From: a virus
Direction: 5' to 3' (one strand)
IMG/VR virus record: IMGVR_UViG_3300025070_000123
Location: 1 to 34,397 of that record
Length of the DNA: 34,397 nt
Below, one piece after another: positions 1-34,397 of the stretch. The position numbers were made by a program, and so were the translations under genes. Numbering within the stretch: position 1 is the stretch's first letter; each line of letters opens with the position of its first letter. The notes under the pieces are model-generated. The model was not told where the DNA came from. It made no database searches and worked only from the letters and a program-made list of their open reading frames with translations.

Positions 1-3000
1 CATTCCAATACACATAATTATCATCATAATTAAGCTTTCCAGCTTTCATATCTTTCATGTGTTGTTTTTCATGAGCAATAGTTTTTGCGCGTTCAACAGG
101 AGATAGGTTAGGGTCTATCTCTATAGTTCCATCATTGTTCGCTCTTCCGGCTATGCCGTTTTCTAATTTTTTAAATGCAGATTCTTTAAATTCAACTTCT
201 TTAAAATCTACATCTTTAAAATCCATAGCTTTAAACTCAGTGTCTTTACTTTCCTTAACACCAAGCTCCCAACTACTCCATCCAGCAAGCATCCAAATCT
301 TCTGCCATAACTCGGCTTCTTCATTTTTAATTGCCGCTAAATGTCTTGCTTTCCTAATTACTCTATCTAAAGGCACGCCACCAAATGATGCAACTTCACC
401 TGCCATAGTTAAAGCCTCATTATCTAAAGAAGGCGTAAATGTATCGCCCTCTTCTATTTTATTAAAAGCTCTATAAGCACCGGCTAAATCTCGCATCTTA
501 GAATTCAAAGGCGGAGAGATAGATGTAGCTGTTATAGCAAAGGCATTAGCGTCGGGTCTTTTCTTACCAGTCTGCTGCATATAACCTTCTTTCATCATTG
601 CATATAGTGTTGATGCTACAGCCCCAGGATTACCTGTAGACTTAGCGAAAGAAGTTAAAGTACGCTCTAACATTAATGCATATTTCTCTTCTTTCATTTC
701 TTCATCTTCAGGGTCATCTGAATTAAGTAAAGCTACTAAGCCGCTTTGCAATGCGTTAAACATTATAGCTTGCCCAACAGAGTAATACAATATAGATTGC
801 ATATCTGTTCTTAATGTACCAGCTGCAGCAGATCTACCAGATGTAATATCTTGTAGTTTCCTTTTTGTTATCCTTGCATACTGAAACGGCGTATTAGCAA
901 ATGCATATATTATTTTACCAATTGACGATGCTTGTATTTCAGAAATTTTAGATGGATCAGAAGACTGTTGAGATTCTTCAGCCGTGTTTCTCCAATCAAT
1001 CATAGCCTGAGCTTCAGCATCGGCCTCGCTCATTCCTTCCTTCATTAGCATATTAACTCTATTCCTATAGTATGCAGCACCCCCAAGAGCAATAGCAAAG
1101 CTATCCGCATACCTTGTTGGTAAAAAGCCAAACTTAAGTATCTTGTTTAAACCTTGTGGCCCTTCTGCAATCTCATCTGCTAATACATCAAACTTCGCGC
1201 CATCACGTCTATTGGATAGATAATCACTATTCCATAGTTTATTATAATCTGCTTTCCATTGCTTTTGATTTGCAAATGCTGCAGTAGCTTGGAATATATT
1301 ATTACCAGGTTTACCTAAAAAGTTTAATGTAGATAGCAACTGCAATATGGCGGAACGAGTGTTTAAGAACATTGTTGTTCCTACCGCTCTGTTTAGCCAA
1401 TTCATGTAAGAGTTTGCATTAGCATCAGTAGATACTCTATTTCTACCGCTTTTCATTCTACGTAGTGTAGATACTATTGCTTGTCTATACTTTTCACCGT
1501 ATTGGTCTGCAATTAAATCAAGTGTTGCGTCTGTAAATACAGCATCAACATTATTACTAAATGTTTCAAGATGTCTTTTACGTGCACCATTATTAATAGA
1601 ATCATAAATCTCTTTAGCAAACGCTCTTGTTTGCCAACCTGATTCAAGTTTAATCGGGAATGATTCAGCAACTTCGTTGGCCAAGTCTAATACTTCAGAA
1701 TTACTTTCTACAGCGTGTATAAGCGCATCTAAATGTTTTTTCTTAGCAATACCTGGATCAACACCTTCTTTAAGTGCATTGTAAACTTTAATAGCATCAC
1801 CTAAAGTATATGGTGTACCACCAACTTTTTCTTCAAAGTTAAAACCTTTAGACATATCAGTCCAAGCTTTAGACTTATGAAGTATTTCAGTGTCAAGAGT
1901 AGCAATACCATTTGAATATGGTTTTAGCAAATTCTCTTCCATCCATTTGCGTGCATCAACACCTAATTGACCTTTGGGTAAGAATGCGTATAGCAAACCT
2001 TTAAAATCTTCAGCATTAGGTGGAATAAACCATCTTGATGCCTTAGCACCTTCACCTTTTGCTTGGTAAATTATTCTTCTAAACATAGACTGCAGCTTAG
2101 AAGCCTGCTCTTCATTTACTTTGTCCTCAGCTTGTTTTTTAGCGCTTTCTTGAGCAATCTTATCGGCTTTAATAAGTTCAGCTTTTCCTATGAGTAACAT
2201 TTTTGATTTACCAGCAGGAACTTCTTTAGTATTTTTAGATATAAGCCTAACAAAGTCTATGAACTCCATCATACCTTCTACTTCGGTATATGCGTCATTT
2301 ATAGCTTGTGCTAAATTTTTATTTTCTCTATAGGATAACTTTAATTTATTTAAAGCTCTTACTATAGGATCAGATTTTGCTTTAGCGCTTTTACTAATAC
2401 TAGCTTCAGATTTTTGAAACCAAGATTTACCTTCAGCAACGTTTTGCAATTTGTCAAAGTTTGCTGCAGGATTACCTTCTAATATATCCTTTACAGCCAG
2501 CTTAGTAACTTCTTCCACAGTTAAATCAGCAAAGTTTTTAATTGTTGGATCAAACCCTAAAGCTTCTCTAACATAATCAAAGAATTTATCAATTAATGTT
2601 TTTGCCTCAGTATCACCTTCAAATAATTCGTAAAGCGACTTACCTTCTTCACCTAATATATGAGCCATTACTTCATTCTTGTATTTGAATGAATCAACCT
2701 CATATAGAGAATATATATCTGAGTCAGCCATTCTTTTTATAGCAGATTCAAATCTTGGATGAGCCCTTAGCTTATCATATATTGCATTGAATAAATCTGG
2801 ATCTTTGTCATTTACTAAATCCGCCCATTCGTGAGTAAACTCATGCATTGCAGTGTCAACACCAGCTTTTTCTTCATTAATGAATATTGCTCCGGGAAGT
2901 CTAAATCCTTTCTGATTAGTGTACCCTTCTGCTTTTTGTTTTGAAACCCCAAGCCCTACTAAATATTCAATAGCTTCGTCTTTCGTTTTAAATACATTTG

Positions 3001-6000
3001 TACCATAAGCAGATTGCAATAAATCAGATAAAGCCTCTACTCTTTCATTTCCTGATAATTCAGGATCCGGTATACTGTCTTCTTGCAGCTCAATTTTAGA
3101 TTGTATTTTATCTGGAGTTTTATCTTTAAATTGTTCTGTTAATTCTAAATTTAATAAAACACCACTTCTTTCTTTAAAGCCAAACTCTTCTGCAACTGTT
3201 TGCCCTGTTTCTATGTTAACTAAATTAGTGGGATCCATCCCTCCCATTATAGAATTTGTGCTATCATTGAAATAGCGACCAAGTGTATTAGAATAAATTA
3301 AACGAAAAGTTTTTTGCATGGTAGATGCAAATCCCCCTTTTTCAACTATTTCGTCATATTTTAAAGAAAGTAAAGTTCTAAAATATTGTTTTTTAATTAA
3401 AGGCAATATACTTCGAGCGCCGTTTTTTGCCTTTTTAGCCGCAATACCAATGTAATTAGCAACGGTGCTAGCAGTCATAGTGTGCTCATCTCTCCAGTTT
3501 CTTACGGCATTTTTCTTGTAATCCGAACCGTACTTTGTCCCCTCAGTGCCAAATTCTAAATTTTTAGTTGTATATCGCAGAGGAGCAACAACTTTTATTA
3601 TGCCGTCAGTAGCTGCGGATGCATCATGTATTAAAATAGCCGCTAATAGTACGTCTTCTTGCATAATTTCGTCAATAAAACCAATAAATTCAGAAAAAGC
3701 TTTATCATTTTGCGCCTGTCTTTTTTGATTTTCTGTATATGCTTTAGTACCTTTTGTAGTAGCTTCTGGTGTAACAGCTAATGGTTTTATTTTAGTATTA
3801 GGTTTAGCATTAGACGCTATTATAGCGTTTTTTAAATCTATATACGTAGGATCTGTTTGGTTAAAATAAATTCCACCACCCGCAGGCATATCAACTCTTT
3901 GCCCATCAACTTTTTTACGCCCCCTTGACCCCATTTTAAACCAGTCTAATGCCTCTAGAGATAAACGCCCTTGTTTGGCTAAATTCATTAACCCTTCGTG
4001 CACTTTTTTTCTTATTTCATTGCTGGTTCTCTCTAATCTTCCTAATCCTAAAGTTTCAGCTAAATCTCTAAAGTCGTCTAATTGACCTTCTAAGTCTCCT
4101 TGTGGCGCTTCAGGCATAACTTCAACACTTCCGGCAGTTATCTCTTCAACAGCCTCTTGATACGCCTTAGCCTGCTGTACTTTACCTTTAACATCAGCAT
4201 TGTCGAGTGCATTTTTAACAGCATCTACATTCTTAATAGCGTCGTCTGCAAAATAAAAGTCGTTATAACCTTCATTTATTTTGCCTTGCACCCAATCAGC
4301 TTTAGCCTGCGCAGTTCCGTCACCTAAACCAATAATATTTTCTTTCCTAAAATCTAGTCCAGCTAATTTTAAAAATTCTTGTATTGGACCAGCTGAATCT
4401 GCAGGTCTAGCTGTTAGAACAAATAAATCTTCATTACCTCTAGCGGCATTTATTTTTTGCGCTACTTCAAACAAAGGCCCCTTCTTACCGTCTATAACTT
4501 TGCTAAATTCAGAAAAGTCAAACGTAGCTCCTTTATCTTTTAGCTCTTGGTCTCTTTTAGCATATTCAGTTGCGTTTAGCTTTCCAGTAGTCCCATCAGG
4601 TAGCGTGTATAGCACTTGTGAATTACTTTTAGCTAATGTATCATCAAAGTCAAATATTCTAATTTTTTTAACTTCCTGCGGCGCTTGTTGAAATGATATT
4701 TGTTGTTCAATGTTAAAAGCTTCTTGTTCCGCTTGTCTTGACTCAAAATAAGATTTTCTAGCATCTGCGGCAAGCTGTGATTCAATTGCTTTTACAAGTT
4801 TATTTTTTCTATCATTTCTAGTTGACGCTTGTTCATTCTTAGCCTCATAATAATCTAAAAAGTCTTGTTTACTCGGTGGATATTTATTCCAATGTTTTGA
4901 AATACCCTTACCTTTTTGAAAATCAATATTGCCTAAAGCAATTGTTCTTAATGTTTCAAAATTATTATTTATAAATTTACTAAAGCTATCGTTGTTTTTA
5001 GTATTGCTACCAATAAACTTTTTAATAGCTTTATCGTATTTATTTGTAAATATAGAATTAAAAGCTTTTTCAGCTTCAGCTTGTCTTTTCTTTTGAGTAA
5101 CTTCGCCTAATTTTTCTAATTCTAATATTGTTTTTTGTAAACCAATTTCTACATCGTTAGTTAAATCTCCTAGTTCTTTACCTAGACCTAATTTTTGATG
5201 TAAAAACTCAGGACCTAAATCTATTTTATCAACATCGATTCCTTCTGAGTATTGAGACAACGCTTCTTTGCTGTCCAAACCTTTATCAATATCTTGTTTA
5301 GCGAGTCCCTTTACAAGTCTATTCGCCCTTACTCGTAATCCTGATTTTTTATTGGCTAGATATGCCGCAAGCGGTACACCTGTTGACGGATCGTATGTTC
5401 TAACTAAATCTCTTAAGCCACCTTTACCCGTTGTTAAAGCGGCAACAAAATCGTCATAAGTACCAATTCTTTTATCTGGTGCTATTTTAGACCAGAATGA
5501 AGTTGCTATTGATCTAATTAATCCTTGTTGTAATTCAGAAACCTCACCCCAAGAATTTTTACCTTTTTTTTCGTATGCTTCTTGTGTTTTTTTAGAAAGA
5601 TCAATATTTTTTTTCTTTTGAGGCCCCTCAGGGTTAGCCATATCAGCAGAATCTGTATTAGCTACTGTTAAAAGCTGTGCTGATTTAAGGACTTCAAGTT
5701 GCTGCTTAGCAGCTTCTTTAGCTGTTTCAGAAGAACTAGGATCGTTTAATATAGATTGATATAATGAAATATCATCATCCATATTCATAAGATCTAGCAT
5801 TTCATCTTCATTAAGCTCATCAAGTTGAAAATCTATATAGTCATCAACTTTCTTAAGTTGTTTTTCTAATTTATCAATTTGAATTTCAAATGCTTCTGCC
5901 GCGGCATCGCCATCGGTTTCTCGCACTTCTTTTAATTGAGCTTTTGATTTTTTAAGCTTTAATTTAAGTTTAGCTTTTAAATCAGAATCAACTTCAGGCT

Positions 6001-7330
6001 GAATTTTTTTCTTTACAGCCTCTTTGTTTTCTGTTATTATTTTTCTACGTCGATTCTGAACTTCTTCTGCTAGCTTGTCATCGTTTTTAACTTTAACGCG
6101 CATACCAGCAAATTCTTCATCTGTAGAATTAGCAACCATATCTTTTATAATTGCTTTGCCTTCGTTTTGCTTAGTTTTTTTACCGTTTACTACATATTGT
6201 GGATTACCAGTAAATGTTTGAGCTGCAATAGATACAGGAGCCATTGCTGTACCAGCTATACCTTCTAAAAATATTTCTTCACCAGCTAATTCTTGGCCTG
6301 CTGCTAACATACCTGCGGTTTCACCTAAAGATCCGCCTACGGCTTCAACGCCTACTGCACTGGCTAGTCTACCGACCTTTTTAAGCTTGCTTAATCCTTT
6401 TCCAGCTACTGCGCCCACTTTACCCGCAATACCCCCAGAAAGAGCTTCTATTGCGCCAATAGCAACACCTCTACCTATAGCTTTGCGGTATAAATCGCTC
6501 ATTTGATCTTCATCGTTTAAAACTTTACGAAGATCTTCATTGTTATCAAAGTTACCGTTATTGTCTTTTACCTTTTCCTGTAGAAGTTCGCTAAAAGTAT
6601 TCAATGATTCCATAGCCATCATAGCGGAACCTTGAGCACCAGCTACAGCACCCGCTACAGCGCCTATACCAGTAGGAGCGCCAACAGCAGCTCCAGTGGC
6701 AGCGCCTCCGGCTACTAATCCTGATACCGCACCGCCTTCCGCAGCAGTACCCACCATTTGAGATAGTGAAGATAACATAACTTCAGGCCCTATGGAAGGA
6801 TTTTTTACAAAAGCTTTTAAACCTGCTAAAAAACCGCCGTCACCTTCATCTTTATATTTTTGAACGTTGCGCTGGTAATTCTGCATTTCTTCAGACTGAG
6901 CTGTATCTTGTATATATTTTATACTATCTCTATATACATTTAATTTTTCATCTGAAACATCGCCTGCAAAAACATCTGCTATTTCACCAGCAGCACTTGA
7001 TTGTCTCCATCCTGATTTTACAGCACGATACATATCGCTAGCAAAATCTACACCAAAAGTATCTTGACCAAAAGTTTCTTCAAGCCACGTTGGAACTTCA
7101 GGCTCTACTTGTTGCTCCGATAAACCATTTTCCGACTGCAAACCCAATTCGCTTGGTTGATCTGCCACTACAGTCGCAGTCTCCCCCGCAGCGGCATCCG
7201 TCTTTCCCCCATATTTAGATTTAAAATCATTTACAACAAATTGTATATTAGCTTCTGACTCACTATTATTGATCATTTGCTGAACAATACCGTCTAGTTT
7301 TTGTCTTTGTTCTTCTGTAAGTTGTTGCAT
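1..7330 (-). CDS. Giant multidomain ejection/polyvalent protein, 3' end outside window
   Basis: The frame opens at an ATG at 7330, overlapping the upstream stop as TAATG, and stays open to the window edge: 2443 codons with no stop. Visible parts in order: Gly/Ala-rich hydrophobic stretches at about residues 185-240 and 275-365, of the kind seen in membrane-inserting phage ejection proteins; a Lys/Glu-rich helical stretch near 415-500; a YDPSTGVPLAAYLANKKSGL segment near 645-665; a HAD phosphatase domain (DxDxT 894-898, TAR 973-975, K1010, DD 1029-1030); a gluzincin-like site (HEFTH 1496-1500, E1553); a hydrophobic helical region near 1980-2010 that could be a polyvalent-protein-associated domain; five pentapeptide units near 2363-2387; and a second HExxH (HEKQH 2420-2424). 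By position, last of three genes after the nozzle, it matches T7 gp16 or crAss-like cargo proteins. No lytic transglycosylase was recognised. The ejection role is inferred; the HAD call is strong, the other domain calls weaker. Confidence 0.85.
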   Translation of the reverse strand, partial: MQQLTEEQRQKLDGIVQQMINNSESEANIQFVVNDFKSKYGGKTDAAAGETATVVADQPSELGLQSENGLSEQQVEPEVPTWLEETFGQDTFGVDFASDMYRAVKSGWRQSSAAGEIADVFAGDVSDEKLNVYRDSIKYIQDTAQSEEMQNYQRNVQKYKDEGDGGFLAGLKAFVKNPSIGPEVMLSSLSQMVGTAAEGGAVSGLVAGGAATGAAVGAPTGIGAVAGAVAGAQGSAMMAMESLNTFSELLQEKVKDNNGNFDNNEDLRKVLNDEDQMSDLYRKAIGRGVAIGAIEALSGGIAGKVGAVAGKGLSKLKKVGRLASAVGVEAVGGSLGETAGMLAAGQELAGEEIFLEGIAGTAMAPVSIAAQTFTGNPQYVVNGKKTKQNEGKAIIKDMVANSTDEEFAGMRVKVKNDDKLAEEVQNRRRKIITENKEAVKKKIQPEVDSDLKAKLKLKLKKSKAQLKEVRETDGDAAAEAFEIQIDKLEKQLKKVDDYIDFQLDELNEDEMLDLMNMDDDISLYQSILNDPSSSETAKEAAKQQLEVLKSAQLLTVANTDSADMANPEGPQKKKNIDLSKKTQEAYEKKGKNSWGEVSELQQGLIRSIATSFWSKIAPDKRIGTYDDFVAALTTGKGGLRDLVRTYDPSTGVPLAAYLANKKSGLRVRANRLVKGLAKQDIDKGLDSKEALSQYSEGIDVDKIDLGPEFLHQKLGLGKELGDLTNDVEIGLQKTILELEKLGEVTQKKRQAEAEKAFNSIFTNKYDKAIKKFIGSNTKNNDSFSKFINNNFETLRTIALGNIDFQKGKGISKHWNKYPPSKQDFLDYYEAKNEQASTRNDRKNKLVKAIESQLAADARKSYFESRQAEQEAFNIEQQISFQQAPQEVKKIRIFDFDDTLAKSNSQVLYTLPDGTTGKLNATEYAKRDQELKDKGATFDFSEFSKVIDGKKGPLFEVAQKINAARGNEDLFVLTARPADSAGPIQEFLKLAGLDFRKENIIGLGDGTAQAKADWVQGKINEGYNDFYFADDAIKNVDAVKNALDNADVKGKVQQAKAYQEAVEEITAGSVEVMPEAPQGDLEGQLDDFRDLAETLGLGRLERTSNEIRKKVHEGLMNLAKQGRLSLEALDWFKMGSRGRKKVDGQRVDMPAGGGIYFNQTDPTYIDLKNAIIASNAKPNTKIKPLAVTPEATTKGTKAYTENQKRQAQNDKAFSEFIGFIDEIMQEDVLLAAILIHDASAATDGIIKVVAPLRYTTKNLEFGTEGTKYGSDYKKNAVRNWRDEHTMTASTVANYIGIAAKKAKNGARSILPLIKKQYFRTLLSLKYDEIVEKGGFASTMQKTFRLIYSNTLGRYFNDSTNSIMGGMDPTNLVNIETGQTVAEEFGFKERSGVLLNLELTEQFKDKTPDKIQSKIELQEDSIPDPELSGNERVEALSDLLQSAYGTNVFKTKDEAIEYLVGLGVSKQKAEGYTNQKGFRLPGAIFINEEKAGVDTAMHEFTHEWADLVNDKDPDLFNAIYDKLRAHPRFESAIKRMADSDIYSLYEVDSFKYKNEVMAHILGEEGKSLYELFEGDTEAKTLIDKFFDYVREALGFDPTIKNFADLTVEEVTKLAVKDILEGNPAANFDKLQNVAEGKSWFQKSEASISKSAKAKSDPIVRALNKLKLSYRENKNLAQAINDAYTEVEGMMEFIDFVRLISKNTKEVPAGKSKMLLIGKAELIKADKIAQESAKKQAEDKVNEEQASKLQSMFRRIIYQAKGEGAKASRWFIPPNAEDFKGLLYAFLPKGQLGVDARKWMEENLLKPYSNGIATLDTEILHKSKAWTDMSKGFNFEEKVGGTPYTLGDAIKVYNALKEGVDPGIAKKKHLDALIHAVESNSEVLDLANEVAESFPIKLESGWQTRAFAKEIYDSINNGARKRHLETFSNNVDAVFTDATLDLIADQYGEKYRQAIVSTLRRMKSGRNRVSTDANANSYMNWLNRAVGTTMFLNTRSAILQLLSTLNFLGKPGNNIFQATAAFANQKQWKADYNKLWNSDYLSNRRDGAKFDVLADEIAEGPQGLNKILKFGFLPTRYADSFAIALGGAAYYRNRVNMLMKEGMSEADAEAQAMIDWRNTAEESQQSSDPSKISEIQASSIGKIIYAFANTPFQYARITKRKLQDITSGRSAAAGTLRTDMQSILYYSVGQAIMFNALQSGLVALLNSDDPEDEEMKEEKYALMLERTLTSFAKSTGNPGAVASTLYAMMKEGYMQQTGKKRPDANAFAITATSISPPLNSKMRDLAGAYRAFNKIEEGDTFTPSLDNEALTMAGEVASFGGVPLDRVIRKARHLAAIKNEEAELWQKIWMLAGWSSWELGVKESKDTEFKAMDFKDVDFKEVEFKESAFKKLENGIAGRANNDGTIEIDPNLSPVERAKTIAHEKQHMKDMKAGKLNYDDNYVYWN
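170..244 (-). repeat. Five tandem 15-bp units encoding pentapeptide-like repeats
   Basis: Within the giant ORF, five consecutive 15-base units encode DTEFK, AMDFK, DVDFK, EVEFK and ESAFK. In the register TEFKA/MDFKD/VDFKE/VEFKE/SAFKK they resemble the pentapeptide-repeat consensus (small residue, D/N, central L/F). That family forms right-handed beta-helices. Five units make only about one and a quarter helical coils, so this may be a short linker just before the C-terminal HExxH motif. Confidence 0.7.
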
Positions 7331-29450: not shown

Positions 29451-29795
29451 TTAGTATGTCCATATAGTGGTTTCAGGTGCCCCTGGATAACCAATGCCTA
29501 CGTGCACAAAATTATTTTTTCTTGATATACCTATGCGAGTAAATCCTACTTTAATAGCAGCTTTAACTAATTTAAAAGTTGCCTCACCGCCTACACATGC
29601 AATATCAACTGCGGCCCCATAAGCGTGCTCGCCTGGTTTAGATTTCTTAGCTTCTATAGGGTGATCAGGACTTCTATAAGTTGATGTTAATTTAATTGGG
29701 TATCCATACTCCTCTCTTAACTCATCTAGCATAGCTAGTAGAACTGGATTCATTTCATCAAATTCACTAAATTCGGATTCTTCGAAATATTTCAT
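29451..29795 (-). CDS. M15-family zinc peptidase, phage endolysin, 114 aa
   Basis: Peptidase M15 (D-Ala-D-Ala carboxypeptidase-like; peptidoglycan endopeptidase in phages). Visible motifs: LTSTYRSPDHP (about 37-46, substrate-binding Arg), then EHAYGAAVDI with zinc ligands H57 and D64, and NFVHVGIG with H98 as third ligand. At 114 residues it is about the normal length of the compact phage type and has no signal peptide, so it needs a holin to reach the wall. Its start overlaps the stop of the 52-residue membrane protein (ATGA). It follows the holin-like gene in the lysis cassette and would cut peptide cross-links at the end of infection. Confidence 0.88.
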   Translation of the reverse strand: MKYFEESEFSEFDEMNPVLLAMLDELREEYGYPIKLTSTYRSPDHPIEAKKSKPGEHAYGAAVDIACVGGEATFKLVKAAIKVGFTRIGISRKNNFVHVGIGYPGAPETTIWTY

Positions 29796-29950
29796 TTTTT
29801 ATTTCTATCTTTTAATTTAATATAAATATTCATCCCAGTATATATTATTGTCATAACTAACACTATAGTTTGCAATGTGGGGTTGATGTTAGGCATAGCC
29901 GAAAAGGCTACCGCTCCGACGTTTATGCCGTAAATTTTTAAATCGCTCAT
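29792..29950 (-). CDS. 52-residue single-span membrane protein in the lysis cassette
   Basis: This small ORF starts at an ATG that overlaps the holin stop (TAATG at 29950) and ends at a TGA that overlaps the endolysin ATG. The sequence begins MSDLKIYGINVGAVAFSAMP, has one hydrophobic segment (LQTIVLVMTIIYTGMNIYI, about 26-44) and a basic tail (KLKDRNKK), giving a probable N-out, C-in one-span protein. Its position between holin and endolysin suggests a second holin, antiholin or pinholin-like regulator. The exact overlap at both ends and the clear membrane segment support its being real. Function is inferred. Confidence 0.78.
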   Translation of the reverse strand: MSDLKIYGINVGAVAFSAMPNINPTLQTIVLVMTIIYTGMNIYIKLKDRNKK

Positions 29951-30363
29951 TATTTGTGTTTACTGTTTCCAAATACTTTTTCTACTCCGCGAGATCCAAA
30001 ATAGCCACCAATGACAATAGTAAGCAAACCTGTAATTGAATCTAATGGGTAACCCATATACCATCCAGCTACATAGCTTATTGTTAAAAATACTAAAGTT
30101 AAAGGGCGCACATTGGCTGCAAGCCACGACCCTGAAGTCGCATCTGCAACCCAACGTTTAGTTGTGCCGTCTATTTCTGCTCTTTCTAAATCTAATTTTT
30201 TTAATGCAATTCTTTTATCTTCTTCGCTCATATCTGAGCCGCCAATAATAGCTTGTATTACTGAACCCACAGGTGTATCACCAGCTATCGCGCCTACGAC
30301 GTTAGGAATCTTTTCTAATAAAAACTTCCCAACGCCGGTGTCTTTAAAACGTTTTTTAGCCAT
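29950..30363 (-). CDS. Holin-like protein (3TM-holin family type), 137 aa
   Basis: The N-terminal half is soluble and basic, with a short hydrophobic Gly/Ala stretch (IPNVVGAIAGDTPVGSVIQA, about 19-38) and a charged helix (DKRIALKKLDLERAEIDGTT). The C-terminal half has LAANVRPLTLVFLTISYVAG (about 81-100) followed by a second membrane segment, SITGLLTIVIGGYFGSRG (about 108-125), then a charged end. NxRP followed by two spans is the pattern of the 'holin of 3TMs' family found in phages and gene-transfer agents. It would pore the inner membrane and release the M15 endolysin encoded two genes on. Its stop overlaps the start of the 52-residue protein. Confidence 0.75.
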   Translation of the reverse strand: MAKKRFKDTGVGKFLLEKIPNVVGAIAGDTPVGSVIQAIIGGSDMSEEDKRIALKKLDLERAEIDGTTKRWVADATSGSWLAANVRPLTLVFLTISYVAGWYMGYPLDSITGLLTIVIGGYFGSRGVEKVFGNSKHK

Positions 30364-30741: not shown

Positions 30742-33700
30742 TTATTTAAAAGCCATATAGATGTATGTTCCTAAGTTTGCATTGAATCCTGCTCCTGCAT
30801 CTGTTATTTGAAATCCTGTTGAATTAGGTTGCAATCCACCTGCTCCTAAAGTACCTTCTGATGCTGAAGTATTAGCAAACAAAAACTTACCTGTTGTTCC
30901 ATCCATTCCCCTTGCGGAATCCATTATATACCATCCATATCCTGATGTATCTGTTCGCTTAATCATAATAAATTTTGGCTCAAAGCCTGTTGTTACAATC
31001 GGACCTGTACTTGAACCATTCCCTGTATAACTCCCTATCTTACTATATCCTGGAACTGAATGGAAACAGTAGGATATGAAATTCTTTGAGTTAGTGTTGG
31101 ATGCAGTACTTGTACCAATGTTAAGTGTCGTAGCATTAGATGAACCTACCGTTGTACTTGAACCCATTGCGCCAGTATTAAATAATAAGTAATTTGTGTC
31201 GTTATTTCCAATAGACGCTCCAGTTATAAGCCAAACATCTGGAAAATCAAGTCCTTTAGTTATTACTATATCGGGGGCAGAGCTTAATCCGTGACCTACT
31301 GTTGTTCCGCCTGTTCCATTACCAGTATATTTAACAATACTAAACCCTGCTTCTGTATTGGCACTAACTTGACTGTCAATACTACCTTGTTCGTTTAAGA
31401 CTGCCTCTCCACCGCCCTTGAATACCCAACCTACATAGGTTTGTCCACTTTGATGTGTTTCATAAGAACCTGTATATGTAGAGTGTGTTGAAGAACCTTC
31501 TACCAAAGTAAATCCATTAGAATCAAAAGAATTTAAATAGCCGTTTGTTCTTTGATATTGCTCTGCGTCTGTTCCATCGCTTCTTAACCAATTTGCTACA
31601 CCTCTTACAGAATCAAAAATTCCATTGGAAGCTGCTAAACTTCTTGACTTAATCCAAACCAAATCAGGCTCAAAACCAACATTAGAAATATATTGAGTAC
31701 CACCATTACCCTCATACAATACAGTCTTAAAGTTAGATGTATCTACTTCAGGCTTTTCGTTGTAAAGTTGTGTTACTTGACTACTTGTAAGGGCAGTTGA
31801 ATAGATGCGTACTTGGTCAATGTCGCCATCGAAATTATTAGCACCATTTGCATTATAATTATTTCTGCCAATTTGTAACGTTGTTGAATTGCTATAAGTT
31901 CCGCTTGTAGATGTAATTGTTCCTACTAAACTACCATCTTTATACGCTTTAACGCTTGTGTTATCTTTTGTAATTACAACGTGATGCCAATTACCATCCG
32001 CCATTCCTGGCACAATTGAGTAGTCAAGGTAAGTTGTACTTGCTGAATTTCTGTGGTAAAAAAGAAGATTACCATCTGCAGAAAAATCAATTCTTACAAA
32101 AGCAACAGCACCGCTATTTGTATTTATAAAAGTTTGACCACCTGAACTATTGCTCGATTTTCCCCAAAAAGAAATTGTATAATCAGAATTTAATATGTTA
32201 GTTGAAATACCACTTTCAATATAACTTGTACTACCATTAAACACCGCTGCTTGACCATACCTTCCAAACCTGTATTCAACGTTTGATTCAGTGCCATCGT
32301 AAGCATAAGTTATATTAGTATCTGTTCCGTTATAGTTACCAGATAAATCTGTAGAATTACCATCTAATTGATATGTTGCAATTGCTGTTTTACCAGATGG
32401 AAATGACAGTGTACTAGTATCACTGACTGTTTCAGCGTATAAATTTAATACATCTGTAGAACTTAATGCGGTATTATATATTCTTACTTGGTCTATTTCC
32501 CCATTAAAATAATAAACTCTACTGCCAAACGCTCGCGCTACTCCAATACCAAATTGAGTCATATCCCAAGAATCGGTATATGCGCCGCTAAACACTTCTG
32601 TTCCGTTTTGATACATCTTCAATACACCGCTTTCTCTTGCAAATACTGCGTGATTCCAAGTGTCTTGACTATAAGTGGTATCCCCCTTTTTAGTAACAGT
32701 ATCATCTGTAACCATTAAAACTTTTGGGCTTACATTTCCGTTTGCAGCAAACCATTGTGTCGTTGTAGAAAACAACGCGCCCTGTGAACTTCCTGAATTT
32801 TGATTAAACCAACAAGAAAAAGTAAAATCTCCTGTTCCAATACTTGGCAAAGAATTACTCGTTATATAACTACTACTCCCATTAAATACCGCACCCTCAT
32901 TAAACTTACCAGTTGACTTAGCTGAGTCTTTACTATTATTATCTAATTTATAATATGCAGTATTAGCAATAGGGTAAGCAATATCGGTTGTTGTAGCCGT
33001 ATACTCGCAAGCAATTTCGCCTGCACCATTGCCATAAAGTTTACCAACTTCTGCAGATGATAACGCTTTAGAGAATATTCTTACTTGGTCTATAGAGCCA
33101 TTAAAATATTGAGTATTTAAATTACCTAAAGAACCTATATGAAAATTTGTATTACCTGCTCCGTAAGTGGGTGCTGTATATGTAGTACTACTGTCCTCCG
33201 AGCCATTGATATATAATTTTGTTGAATTTCCTGAACTATCAATAGTTAATGCAACGTGATGCCAAGTATTTGCTAATAAAGCAGTAGAACTTGTAATAAC
33301 ACCAACAGCCGTATTATAAGACAAATATCCCCCATCGTTTATTCTTAATCCCCATCCCGTGTTAGACGAGCTAAAATTAGAAACTATTTGCTGAAATCCA
33401 CTTGTTGTTCCTAAGTTTATCCAAGCTGAAACGGATATAGTGTTAATATTAATAACGTTGCTTGAAACTTCTATCTCACTACTACTCCCATTAAACCTAG
33501 CGCCATATAATGATTTCCCTCCAACGCCAAAGTCTACGTTTGTAGGGGTTCCGTCATATCTATATGTTATATCTGTTTCTACACCATCATAAGCCGTAGT
33601 ACCCATAGATTCTTTTGCACTACCATCTAGATTATAGTTTGCAATGCATCCAAATAAATGTGTGCCTACAGTTGAATTGTTTTCTTGGTATAATTGAGTA

Positions 33701-34350
33701 ACTTGAGATGACGTAAGTGCTGTATTATATATTCTCACTTGGTCTAAATCTCCTTTATAATACTGTGTATTAAAATTACCATTTGTGCCTAAAGCCACGC
33801 CTGTAGTGCCACTTCCCCCATAAGAAGCAGAAGGTAATGACTGTGTACTTACTAATGAATTATCTATGTATATCTTTCTTTCTAAATTAGGAACATCTAT
33901 CGTAACCGCAACGTGGTGCCATTGACTATCATTGAAAGTTTGAGTTGTAGTAAATGTCGTAGAATTGTTGCTATATCTTGTTAAAAAATATAGCGTACCA
34001 TTAGTTAAATAATAAACATTTAAACTTATCCCAGCTCCCGCATAAACACTGTAGATAATACTATTACCTGAAATCCCTGTGTAAGAAGTATTCATCCAAA
34101 AAGAAACAGATTGTGAAACCTTTTGGTTTAATAAACCTGATAATCCACTTGAACCTGTACCAAGATTTATATAACTACTACTCCCATTAAATATAGCAGC
34201 TTCACCAAATTTACCTGAAGCACCTCCAACGTCTGAAGCATCATAATCTAAACCGTACAGGGCTACGCCGCTTCCGTCTTTAAATATATCTGTCGTATCT
34301 GTAAAACACGGACGTGAAAACGTATTAATTAATTGTGATGTTCCTATCAT
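30742..34350 (-). CDS. Tail adhesin with four LamG-type modules and DUF7483-like tail, 1202 aa
   Basis: Four LamG/concanavalin-like lectin modules are read from repeated hallmarks. FNGSSSYI-type strands begin at F54, F286, F489 and F704, and DQVRIYNTAL...LY-type ends lie near 220, 440, 645 and 875. Each module is about 200-230 residues. LamG folds bind glycans through a calcium site, so the protein probably recognises host surface sugars. The C-terminal 320 residues repeat GFEPDLVWIKSRS...DSVRG and GFEPKFIMIKRTD...MDSARG, a pattern I associate with DUF7483 in marine phage tail proteins, ending in YIYMAFK. The chosen ATG at 34350 overlaps a TGA in another frame; an in-frame TAG lies five codons upstream. 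Neighbouring modules share near-identical DNA. Confidence 0.85.
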   Translation of the reverse strand: MIGTSQLINTFSRPCFTDTTDIFKDGSGVALYGLDYDASDVGGASGKFGEAAIFNGSSSYINLGTGSSGLSGLLNQKVSQSVSFWMNTSYTGISGNSIIYSVYAGAGISLNVYYLTNGTLYFLTRYSNNSTTFTTTQTFNDSQWHHVAVTIDVPNLERKIYIDNSLVSTQSLPSASYGGSGTTGVALGTNGNFNTQYYKGDLDQVRIYNTALTSSQVTQLYQENNSTVGTHLFGCIANYNLDGSAKESMGTTAYDGVETDITYRYDGTPTNVDFGVGGKSLYGARFNGSSSEIEVSSNVININTISVSAWINLGTTSGFQQIVSNFSSSNTGWGLRINDGGYLSYNTAVGVITSSTALLANTWHHVALTIDSSGNSTKLYINGSEDSSTTYTAPTYGAGNTNFHIGSLGNLNTQYFNGSIDQVRIFSKALSSAEVGKLYGNGAGEIACEYTATTTDIAYPIANTAYYKLDNNSKDSAKSTGKFNEGAVFNGSSSYITSNSLPSIGTGDFTFSCWFNQNSGSSQGALFSTTTQWFAANGNVSPKVLMVTDDTVTKKGDTTYSQDTWNHAVFARESGVLKMYQNGTEVFSGAYTDSWDMTQFGIGVARAFGSRVYYFNGEIDQVRIYNTALSSTDVLNLYAETVSDTSTLSFPSGKTAIATYQLDGNSTDLSGNYNGTDTNITYAYDGTESNVEYRFGRYGQAAVFNGSTSYIESGISTNILNSDYTISFWGKSSNSSGGQTFINTNSGAVAFVRIDFSADGNLLFYHRNSASTTYLDYSIVPGMADGNWHHVVITKDNTSVKAYKDGSLVGTITSTSGTYSNSTTLQIGRNNYNANGANNFDGDIDQVRIYSTALTSSQVTQLYNEKPEVDTSNFKTVLYEGNGGTQYISNVGFEPDLVWIKSRSLAASNGIFDSVRGVANWLRSDGTDAEQYQRTNGYLNSFDSNGFTLVEGSSTHSTYTGSYETHQSGQTYVGWVFKGGGEAVLNEQGSIDSQVSANTEAGFSIVKYTGNGTGGTTVGHGLSSAPDIVITKGLDFPDVWLITGASIGNNDTNYLLFNTGAMGSSTTVGSSNATTLNIGTSTASNTNSKNFISYCFHSVPGYSKIGSYTGNGSSTGPIVTTGFEPKFIMIKRTDTSGYGWYIMDSARGMDGTTGKFLFANTSASEGTLGAGGLQPNSTGFQITDAGAGFNANLGTYIYMAFK
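32862..32888 (-). repeat. 27-bp direct repeat copy A in the LamG gene
   Basis: Identical over 27 bases to 34167-34193. It encodes the FNGSSSYI strand of the third LamG module. An 18-base core of it is also present at 33478-33495 in the second module. Confidence 0.85.
33478..33495 (-). repeat. 18-bp core repeat in second LamG module
   Basis: Identical to the central 18 bases (ACTACTACTCCCATTAAA on the plus strand) of the 27-bp repeats at 32862 and 34167. The distances, 609 and 696 bases, are both multiples of three. Confidence 0.8.
34167..34193 (-). repeat. 27-bp direct repeat copy B in the LamG gene
   Basis: Identical to 32862-32888 and 1305 bases from it, exactly 435 codons. It encodes the same FNGSSSYI strand in the first LamG module. 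Recombination between the two copies would remove two modules in frame. Confidence 0.85.
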
Positions 34351-34397
34351 AACCAGGGAAAACTACTTGTTTCAGTACCTTTATTTAAATTAAATTT
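34347..34397 (-). CDS. C-terminal end of an upstream gene (partial)
   Basis: A frame open from the window edge ends with TGA at 34349-34347, overlapping the LamG ATG as ATGA. Only 16 residues are visible, ending GTETSSFPWL. The ATGA overlap is the same junction style as elsewhere in the cluster, which supports its being a real gene end. With so few codons it could also be leader sequence. Nothing can be said of function. Confidence 0.4.
   Translation of the reverse strand, partial: KFNLNKGTETSSFPWL

Follow-up and report, generated by a model that had tools for sequence, protein, structure and literature searches.

IMG/VR record IMGVR_UViG_3300025070_000123 is a virus genome fragment of 34,397 nucleotides, which was analyzed over its whole length and is referred to here as the window. 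It carries a gene of 1202 codons (30742..34350, minus strand) encoding four Laminin_G_3 (concanavalin A [ConA]-like lectin) modules and a C-terminal DUF7483 domain. The gene is organized as a cassette rack, in which frame segments alternate with lectin cores and each core lies between two short DNA words; related phages carry unrelated cores in the same slot, and closely similar cores in different slots. The most probable explanation, to which we assign a probability of roughly 0.78, is that receptor-binding lectin cassettes are exchanged in a fixed-slot rack through short homology at these words.

The lectin gene and its repeated words

A Pfam profile search matched Laminin_G_3 (PF13385) to four stretches of the gene product (E 3.5e-89; 297 bits against a cut-off of 27.6), and DUF7483 was found at the C-terminus by the same approach (E 8e-90). 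The PHROG relatives of the product are a virion structural protein (phrog_19943) and a tail fiber protein (phrog_24898), with the best stretches C-terminal, and these matches establish homology to tail or virion proteins. Only LamG, DUF7483, and phage structural families were returned by the Pfam and PHROG searches, with no match to the gp38 family. An AlphaFold model of module 1 (pLDDT 81) has a LamG/ConA-like fold, with TM-scores of ~0.55–0.67 to structures of laminin, neurexin, pentraxin, and the sialidase CBM40. In this fold, the first and last strands form the framework and the remainder bears the ligand-contact loops. The words map to the first strands (E19-22/E28-32) and the last strand (E166-176) of the model.

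The first-pass annotation had pointed to identical in-frame repeats between the LamG modules, proposing that recombination at them would change host binding. The repeats are present as described: a 27-nt exact repeat lies at 32862-32888 and 34167-34193, 1305 nt apart, and an 18-nt core copy lies at 33478-33495, 609 and 696 nt from the 27-nt copies, every spacing being divisible by 3. All sit in register on the minus strand of open reading frame (ORF) 30742-34350. A common coding of FNGSSSYI holds for slots 1 and 3; the slot 2 copy reads FNGSSSEI, so that the shared 18 nt encode FNGSSS only. The fourth LamG module carries a diverged 5' copy, FNGSTSYI, at 32218-32241. A second repeat family, not noticed earlier, was found at the opposite module edge (19 nt at 32478 and 33075, part of an IDQVRIY box). 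There are no other exact direct repeats of ≥18 nt in the 34,397-nt window, and the longest inverted repeat arms within 31000-34397 are 15 nt. Spacing in multiples of 3 is expected for equivalent positions in any repeated domains and carries no weight on its own. The chance that two independent FNGSSS stretches use the same six codons is ~0.0025, by arithmetic from LamG-gene codon usage.

The 5' word is TTTAATGGGAGTAGTAGT (FNGSSS), of ~18–24 nt and up to 27 nt, and the 3' word is ATAGACCAAGTAAGAAT (IDQVRI), of ~9–20 nt. The frame segments have fixed lengths of 195, 273, 228, and 276 nt and are kept at 77–98% identity slot by slot in close relatives (ten genes). Each linker includes the closing strand of one lectin module and the opening strand of the module that follows.

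In the window, all elements of the rack are on the minus strand. Frame segment F0 (34168..34350), from the N-terminus to the end of the first 5' word, is 85–97% identical to F0 of the sister loci L007, L220, L221, L222, and L223. It ends with the 5' word of slot 1, TTTAATGGGAGTAGTAGTTATATA (FNGSSSYI; 34168..34191), inside the 27-nt repeat. Exchangeable lectin core 1 (33745..34167), to which the same-slot cores of sisters are unrelated, is followed by the 3' word LDQVRIY (33727..33747). Frame segment F1 (33472..33744; 273 nt), 84–89% identical at the same slot in five sisters, ends with the slot 2 word FNGSSSEI (33472..33495), which contains the 18-nt core copy. Core 2 (33091..33471), exchangeable as judged from same-slot core comparison, leads to IDQVRIF (33073..33093), part of the 19-nt repeat. 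Frame segment F2 (32863..33090; 228 nt) is 81–95% identical at the same slot in L220, L221, L223, and L224, and 87% over 231 nt in L007; it ends with the slot 3 word FNGSSSYI (32863..32886), inside the other copy of the 27-nt repeat. Core 3 (32494..32862) and the 3' word IDQVRIY (32476..32496) come next, then frame segment F3 (32218..32493; 276 nt; 86–93% at the same slot in L007, L220, and L223) with the diverged slot 4 word FNGSTSYI (32218..32241). Core 4 (31819..32217) ends at IDQVRIY (31801..31821). The C-terminal frame with DUF7483 (30742..31818) is itself variable between sisters: identity is ~77% over part of it, with patches elsewhere, against ~94–97% in the flanking genes. Judging from this divergence, the DUF7483 part may be a second fast-evolving binding part.

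Related cores occur in foreign frames, with junctions at the words

The window and L007 share a backbone that is 94.7% identical over 5997 nt. Within the LamG gene, homology covers the N-terminus, linkers, and C-terminal part, with frame identities of 97, 89, 87, and 93%. The homologous segments end at gene nt 186, 881, 1488, and 2132, where the 5' words lie at 160, 856, 1465, and 2110, and start again at 605, 1258, 1840, and 2530, where the 3' words lie at 607, 1261, 1858, and 2533. The sole core common to the two genes is in different slots: core 3 of the window is 94.9% identical to the slot 4 core of L007, and 95.1% identical to the last core of L009. Core 4 of the window corresponds to the second core of L010 (95.5%) and the first core of L008 (94.2%), contigs for which no backbone nucleotide match to the window was found at the cut-off used. 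Other shared cores are L220 core 2 and L010 core 1 (92.8%), and L221 core 2 and L222 core 3 (81.8%). Among five genes (the window, L007, L220, L221, and L223, with backbones 85–95% identical to the window), related cores were found in 1/40 same-slot and 1/120 cross-slot comparisons. L005 and L220 have the same core 3 but different cores 1, 2, and 4, despite 97.2% identity over 2032 nt downstream. The gene is thus modular, in that conserved motifs alternate with variable segments and the junctions fall at the motifs.

The junctions are sharp. Among 11 junction pairs inspected, nine had a foreign 5' frame, and in those nine the similarity starts at the F codon of the 5' word. In eight of the nine it stops just after GACCAAGTA; the exception is L176/L232, in which the 3' frame is itself related. 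The remaining two pairs (L005/L220 and L026/L267) share their frames and show no break. The core lists behind the wider comparison hold 226 usable cores, from the 283 of 346 modules with a recognized 5' box; modules with unrecognized boxes were dropped. Cluster representatives gave 45 core pairs at ≥78% identity; the frame is foreign on the 5' side in 25 of them, on the 3' side in 27, and on both sides in 22. At the F codon of the 5' word, mean similarity over these pairs climbs from 0.54 to 0.96, and 12 nt into the 3' word it drops from 0.90 to 0.56. The pairs are not independent, since several share one core and loci fetched with the 5' word are included (L038, obtained with the word, is the same contig as L222); eight of the 22 pairs foreign on both sides involve only loci found by protein query, including L008, which also holds the word. 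Alignment ends in the LamG region fell at the words in 2882/4059 cases, compared with a mean of 511 and a maximum of 595 in 500 random placements, although these ends are again not independent, each pair being counted in both directions and 5'-word-fetched loci being included.

The same core sets recur across records. The window and L003 differ by one mismatch in 3618 nt, and the window and L004 (partial) by none in 2307 nt; L005/L007 and L006/L007 have no mismatches in 3612 and 3033 nt, respectively. As far as seen, the gene is therefore not a switch operating within a clone, since the window phage occurs in other records with the same cores. The 65-kb L007 record contains no silent alternative cassettes, only the four modules of its LamG gene, and donors are thus probably other phages.

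Module number also varies. L222 has three modules and L220 has five. In L222, however, the junction is not at the FNGSSS repeat but within a chimeric linker, with an F2-like start, an F3-like end, and a middle resembling the L008 and L010 linkers. The fifth LamG match of L220 (aa 946-1129 of ORF L220|+|2009|1384) lies in the C-terminal part after slot 4 and has its own FNGSSS and IDQVR boxes.

The words are conserved at the DNA level

Codon use at the words was compared with expectations from each gene's own usage, in viral modules from loci found at the protein level only; the 118 loci fetched by an exact 18-mer were left out. The sets comprised 70 ORFs with 151 modules and a larger 125 ORFs with 256 modules, 251 of them below 42% GC. 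In these 251 modules, chosen without the word, Gly of FNGSSS was encoded by GGG in 122/217 (expected 0.12), and its three Ser residues by AGT in 161/190, 150/168, and 152/198 (expected 0.32). Asp of IDQVR was GAC in 192/221 viral modules (expected 0.24). Within the cores, Gly columns 115, 138, and 151 used GGG in 14/182, 10/232, and 11/224, at or below expectation, and His 98 used CAC in 71/195, against 0.38 expected. A bacterial LamG control of 189 modules was near expectation for GGG (6/39 and 16/107) and GAC (14/42 and 57/126), with AGT at Ser 17 slightly raised on small numbers (4/7 and 8/20). Among random viral pairs, 10.7% had an identical run of ≥18 nt at the 5' box and 8.5% had one at the 3' box, compared with 0–0.2% at core columns and bacterial boxes.

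In 158 loci chosen without the word (1.48 Mb), all 84 5' words and all 57 3' words were in frame inside LamG ORFs, and in the 118 word-chosen loci the 5' word lay outside LamG ORFs in 5/157 cases. The words are conserved more strictly at the DNA level than the protein requires. Core codons are mostly unshared, although modules that were simply young would share them, indicating that the words spread or are maintained separately from the cores. Because modules picked without the word still show the codon lock, chance and codon bias are rejected as origins of the repeats.

The LamG genes of other named phage records offered 11 modules only, from two of seven loci, too few for the codon test. Matches of Cellulophaga phages to the 5' word were set aside as chance, since in the four records inspected they are in or beside a ~39-codon ORF upstream of ERF or other recombination genes and not in LamG. 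In two of these phages (L437 4001-4023 and L438 4001-4023), 22 of 23 nt match the 5' word query; the small ORF containing the match immediately precedes the ERF gene in L437 and other recombination genes in L438. With the 3' word as query, matches to cultured isolates were weak and scattered.

Phage lineage and recombination genes

Relatives of the window terminase occur in 87 phage records, most of them of Flavobacterium and Cellulophaga phages, and in at least 598 stretches of viral contigs; the 18-nt word is present in at least 119 stretches of viral contigs. Among 29 longer records, mostly obtained by searching with the word or with LamG, TTTAATGGNAGTAGTAGT is present in 25 and the reversed control pattern in none; 18 have a terminase of the same PHROG family. 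The host group is probably flavobacterial.

The L007 record encodes an ERF-family annealase (E 5e-30), followed by a PDDEXK-like gene. ERF was found in 8/10 long records, though not in the 92.6-kb record G017. RVT_1, Resolvase, and Phage_integrase were each found in 0/10 long records, some of which may be incomplete. In a sister genome, a gene near the replication genes (L436 2770-3555) has a protein start that by eye resembles a GIY-YIG nuclease, a candidate for cutting at the words.

In the window, a holin-like gene (PHROG) and an M15 peptidase endolysin gene lie close downstream of the lectin gene (29451-30363). A very long open frame of 2443 aa (2-7330) runs off the record and has a MHEFTHEW stretch that, by eye only, resembles a zinc metallopeptidase motif.

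Proposed mechanism and alternatives

We propose the following model. The gene is a fixed rack, made up of the N-terminal segment, three linkers, and the C-terminal part, with four slots that each hold a lectin core between two words. When two related phages co-infect one cell, strands would anneal at the words, most likely through a phage ERF-type single-strand annealing protein, and one core would be replaced in frame by another from a large shared pool, leaving the frame segments untouched. Cores move from phage to phage and from slot to slot. Annealing at the words may be rare, with selection picking the products. Conservation of the words as DNA would follow from the need for matching words in any core that is to be exchanged, each exchange spreading the words further. 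The benefit is plausibly a change of glycan receptor, since a role in receptor or glycan specificity would suit a virion protein whose cores are replaced fast.

Recombination at the repeats, as the first-pass annotation had suggested, is thus supported by the exchange of cores at the words and by the codon lock. Neither of the objections raised there applies: the modules of relatives differ rather than being the same four throughout, and codon preference alone does not account for the codon use of modules chosen without the word.

Several observations weigh against this model. At the short 3' word, many pairs have no more than 9–17 nt in common. An excerpt of PMC3945230 gives efficient pairing lengths of 23–27 bp for Red-beta and 31–34 bp for RecA, and states that phage D3 Erf matches Red-beta in recombining both identical and diverged sequences. 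The 5' word (18–27 nt) is at the limit of the length for efficient Red-beta pairing and the 3' word is often shorter, so that exchange at the 3' side would be rare, aided by flanking partial similarity, or due to another mechanism. The lock is incomplete, given the 10.7% and 8.5% of random viral pairs that share ≥18 nt at the 5' and 3' boxes, and no link was found between its strength and the number of modules, the GGG fraction being 0.56, 0.66, and 0.46 for one, two, and three or more modules, without a steady rise. One core column, Ser 36, is codon-biased (TCT in 120/232 against 0.26 expected), the single exception among the columns tested. No exchange was seen within one population, the window genotype being stable in three records, and no ERF match was found in the window, which is itself a fragment.

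The words could instead be sites recognized by a protein, a nuclease or a recombinase, through which the exchange of cassettes would become both directional and frequent. Such a dedicated system would suit the sharp junctions at both words, the peak of the DNA lock exactly there, the confinement of the words to LamG ORFs in loci chosen without them, and the seeming shortness of the 3' word for plain homologous exchange. We nevertheless regard it as unlikely: the two words are neither inverted nor identical to each other, no serine or tyrosine recombinase was found in the ten long records, and plain annealing would leave the same picture at core edges where local identity is limited to the words.

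A slightly less likely alternative is that whole modules are duplicated, deleted, or unequally crossed over between repeats, the outcome that the first-pass annotation had envisaged. The versions with three, four, and five modules and the chimeric F2/F3 linker of L222 fit such events. However, linkers do not accompany a core that changes slot; what is replaced is the core between two words, with the linkers staying in their slots. The L222 junction lies in a linker rather than a repeat, and the process would cover changes in number but not the main turnover.

Divergence in place, with frames under purifying selection, cores evolving fast by point mutation and insertions or deletions, and words marking the edge of the conserved part, also predicts the same-slot contrast between frames and cores and the alignment ends at the words. 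It is improbable, because cores 78–98% identical sit in foreign frames or other slots while the frames differ (22/45 pairs, and window core 3 and L007 core 4 or window core 4 and L010 core 2), and because the codon lock is not a protein effect. These cross-slot and cross-frame cores already contradict it, and it is tenable only for slots without a known donor. Lastly, although a 27-nt intragenic repeat could mislead a short-read assembler into joining wrong modules, metagenome assembly chimeras are very improbable, given that the same core sets recur in other records (window/L003, window/L004, L005/L007, and L006/L007) and that cores in foreign frames differ by 2–22%, as real descendants would, unlike a mis-join within one sample.

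As a more tentative extension of cassette exchange by short homology, which we think doubtful on present evidence, the words may be an evolved exchange standard, held at the DNA level by selection for exchangeability across many phages of one lineage. These phages would draw on a common pool of lectin cores for a shared receptor-specificity socket, perhaps with a dedicated cutting or recognizing protein.

Exchange of this kind would give phages a nucleotide-level route along which binding specificity may change more quickly than other parts of the genome do. It comes with a searchable signature, two codon-locked words flanking a variable core, and the words predict which phages can trade receptor parts. 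It also makes testable whether recombination sites inside receptor-binding genes persist by selection for exchangeability itself.

Comparison with known systems

A literature search found no description of this LamG rack; the search was partial, so absence from print does not follow. Diversity-generating retroelements likewise keep a fixed ligand-binding scaffold with a changing binding surface. They differ in that cores here are replaced wholesale rather than mutated at single positions, and RVT_1 was absent from the ten long records, some possibly incomplete. Shufflons and site-specific tail-fiber switches also differ from the rack: Resolvase and Phage_integrase were absent from the same ten records, and the L007 record holds no silent cassettes.

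Recent domain shuffling (mosaicism) in phage receptor-binding proteins has been described at the protein-family and domain level in PMC10684548 (in part), whose main text does not contain the terms lectin, LamG, or concanavalin. In the rack, the junctions lie inside the domain and are defined to a few nucleotides. Rad52-like annealases (Red-beta, Erf, and Sak) are efficient on short or diverged homology according to the excerpt of PMC3945230 and are the likely agent here; the relaxed recombination it describes concerns the general mosaicism of temperate phage genomes, whereas here it would act on repeated cassettes with locked words. Receptor-binding modules are also swapped between related phages in the tailspikes of Ackermannviridae, and the part of PMC8432352 consulted mentions no multi-slot rack.

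T-even gp38 adhesins carry glycine-rich motifs, whereas the motifs here are FNGSSS and IDQVRI, with no gp38 homology; the LamG gene would work like gp38 without being a member of that family. A 1998 study by Tetart is said to be associated with these adhesins. In them, as in the LamG gene, conserved motifs alternate with variable segments, which in gp38 are hypervariable and contact the receptor (PMC12529663, in part). The exchanged unit here is instead the interior of a LamG/ConA-like domain, present in several slots, with cores that change slot and conservation that extends to synonymous positions. Relative to gp38 adhesins, the rack is thus new in its fold, its several slots, its slot-changing cores, and its codon-level lock.

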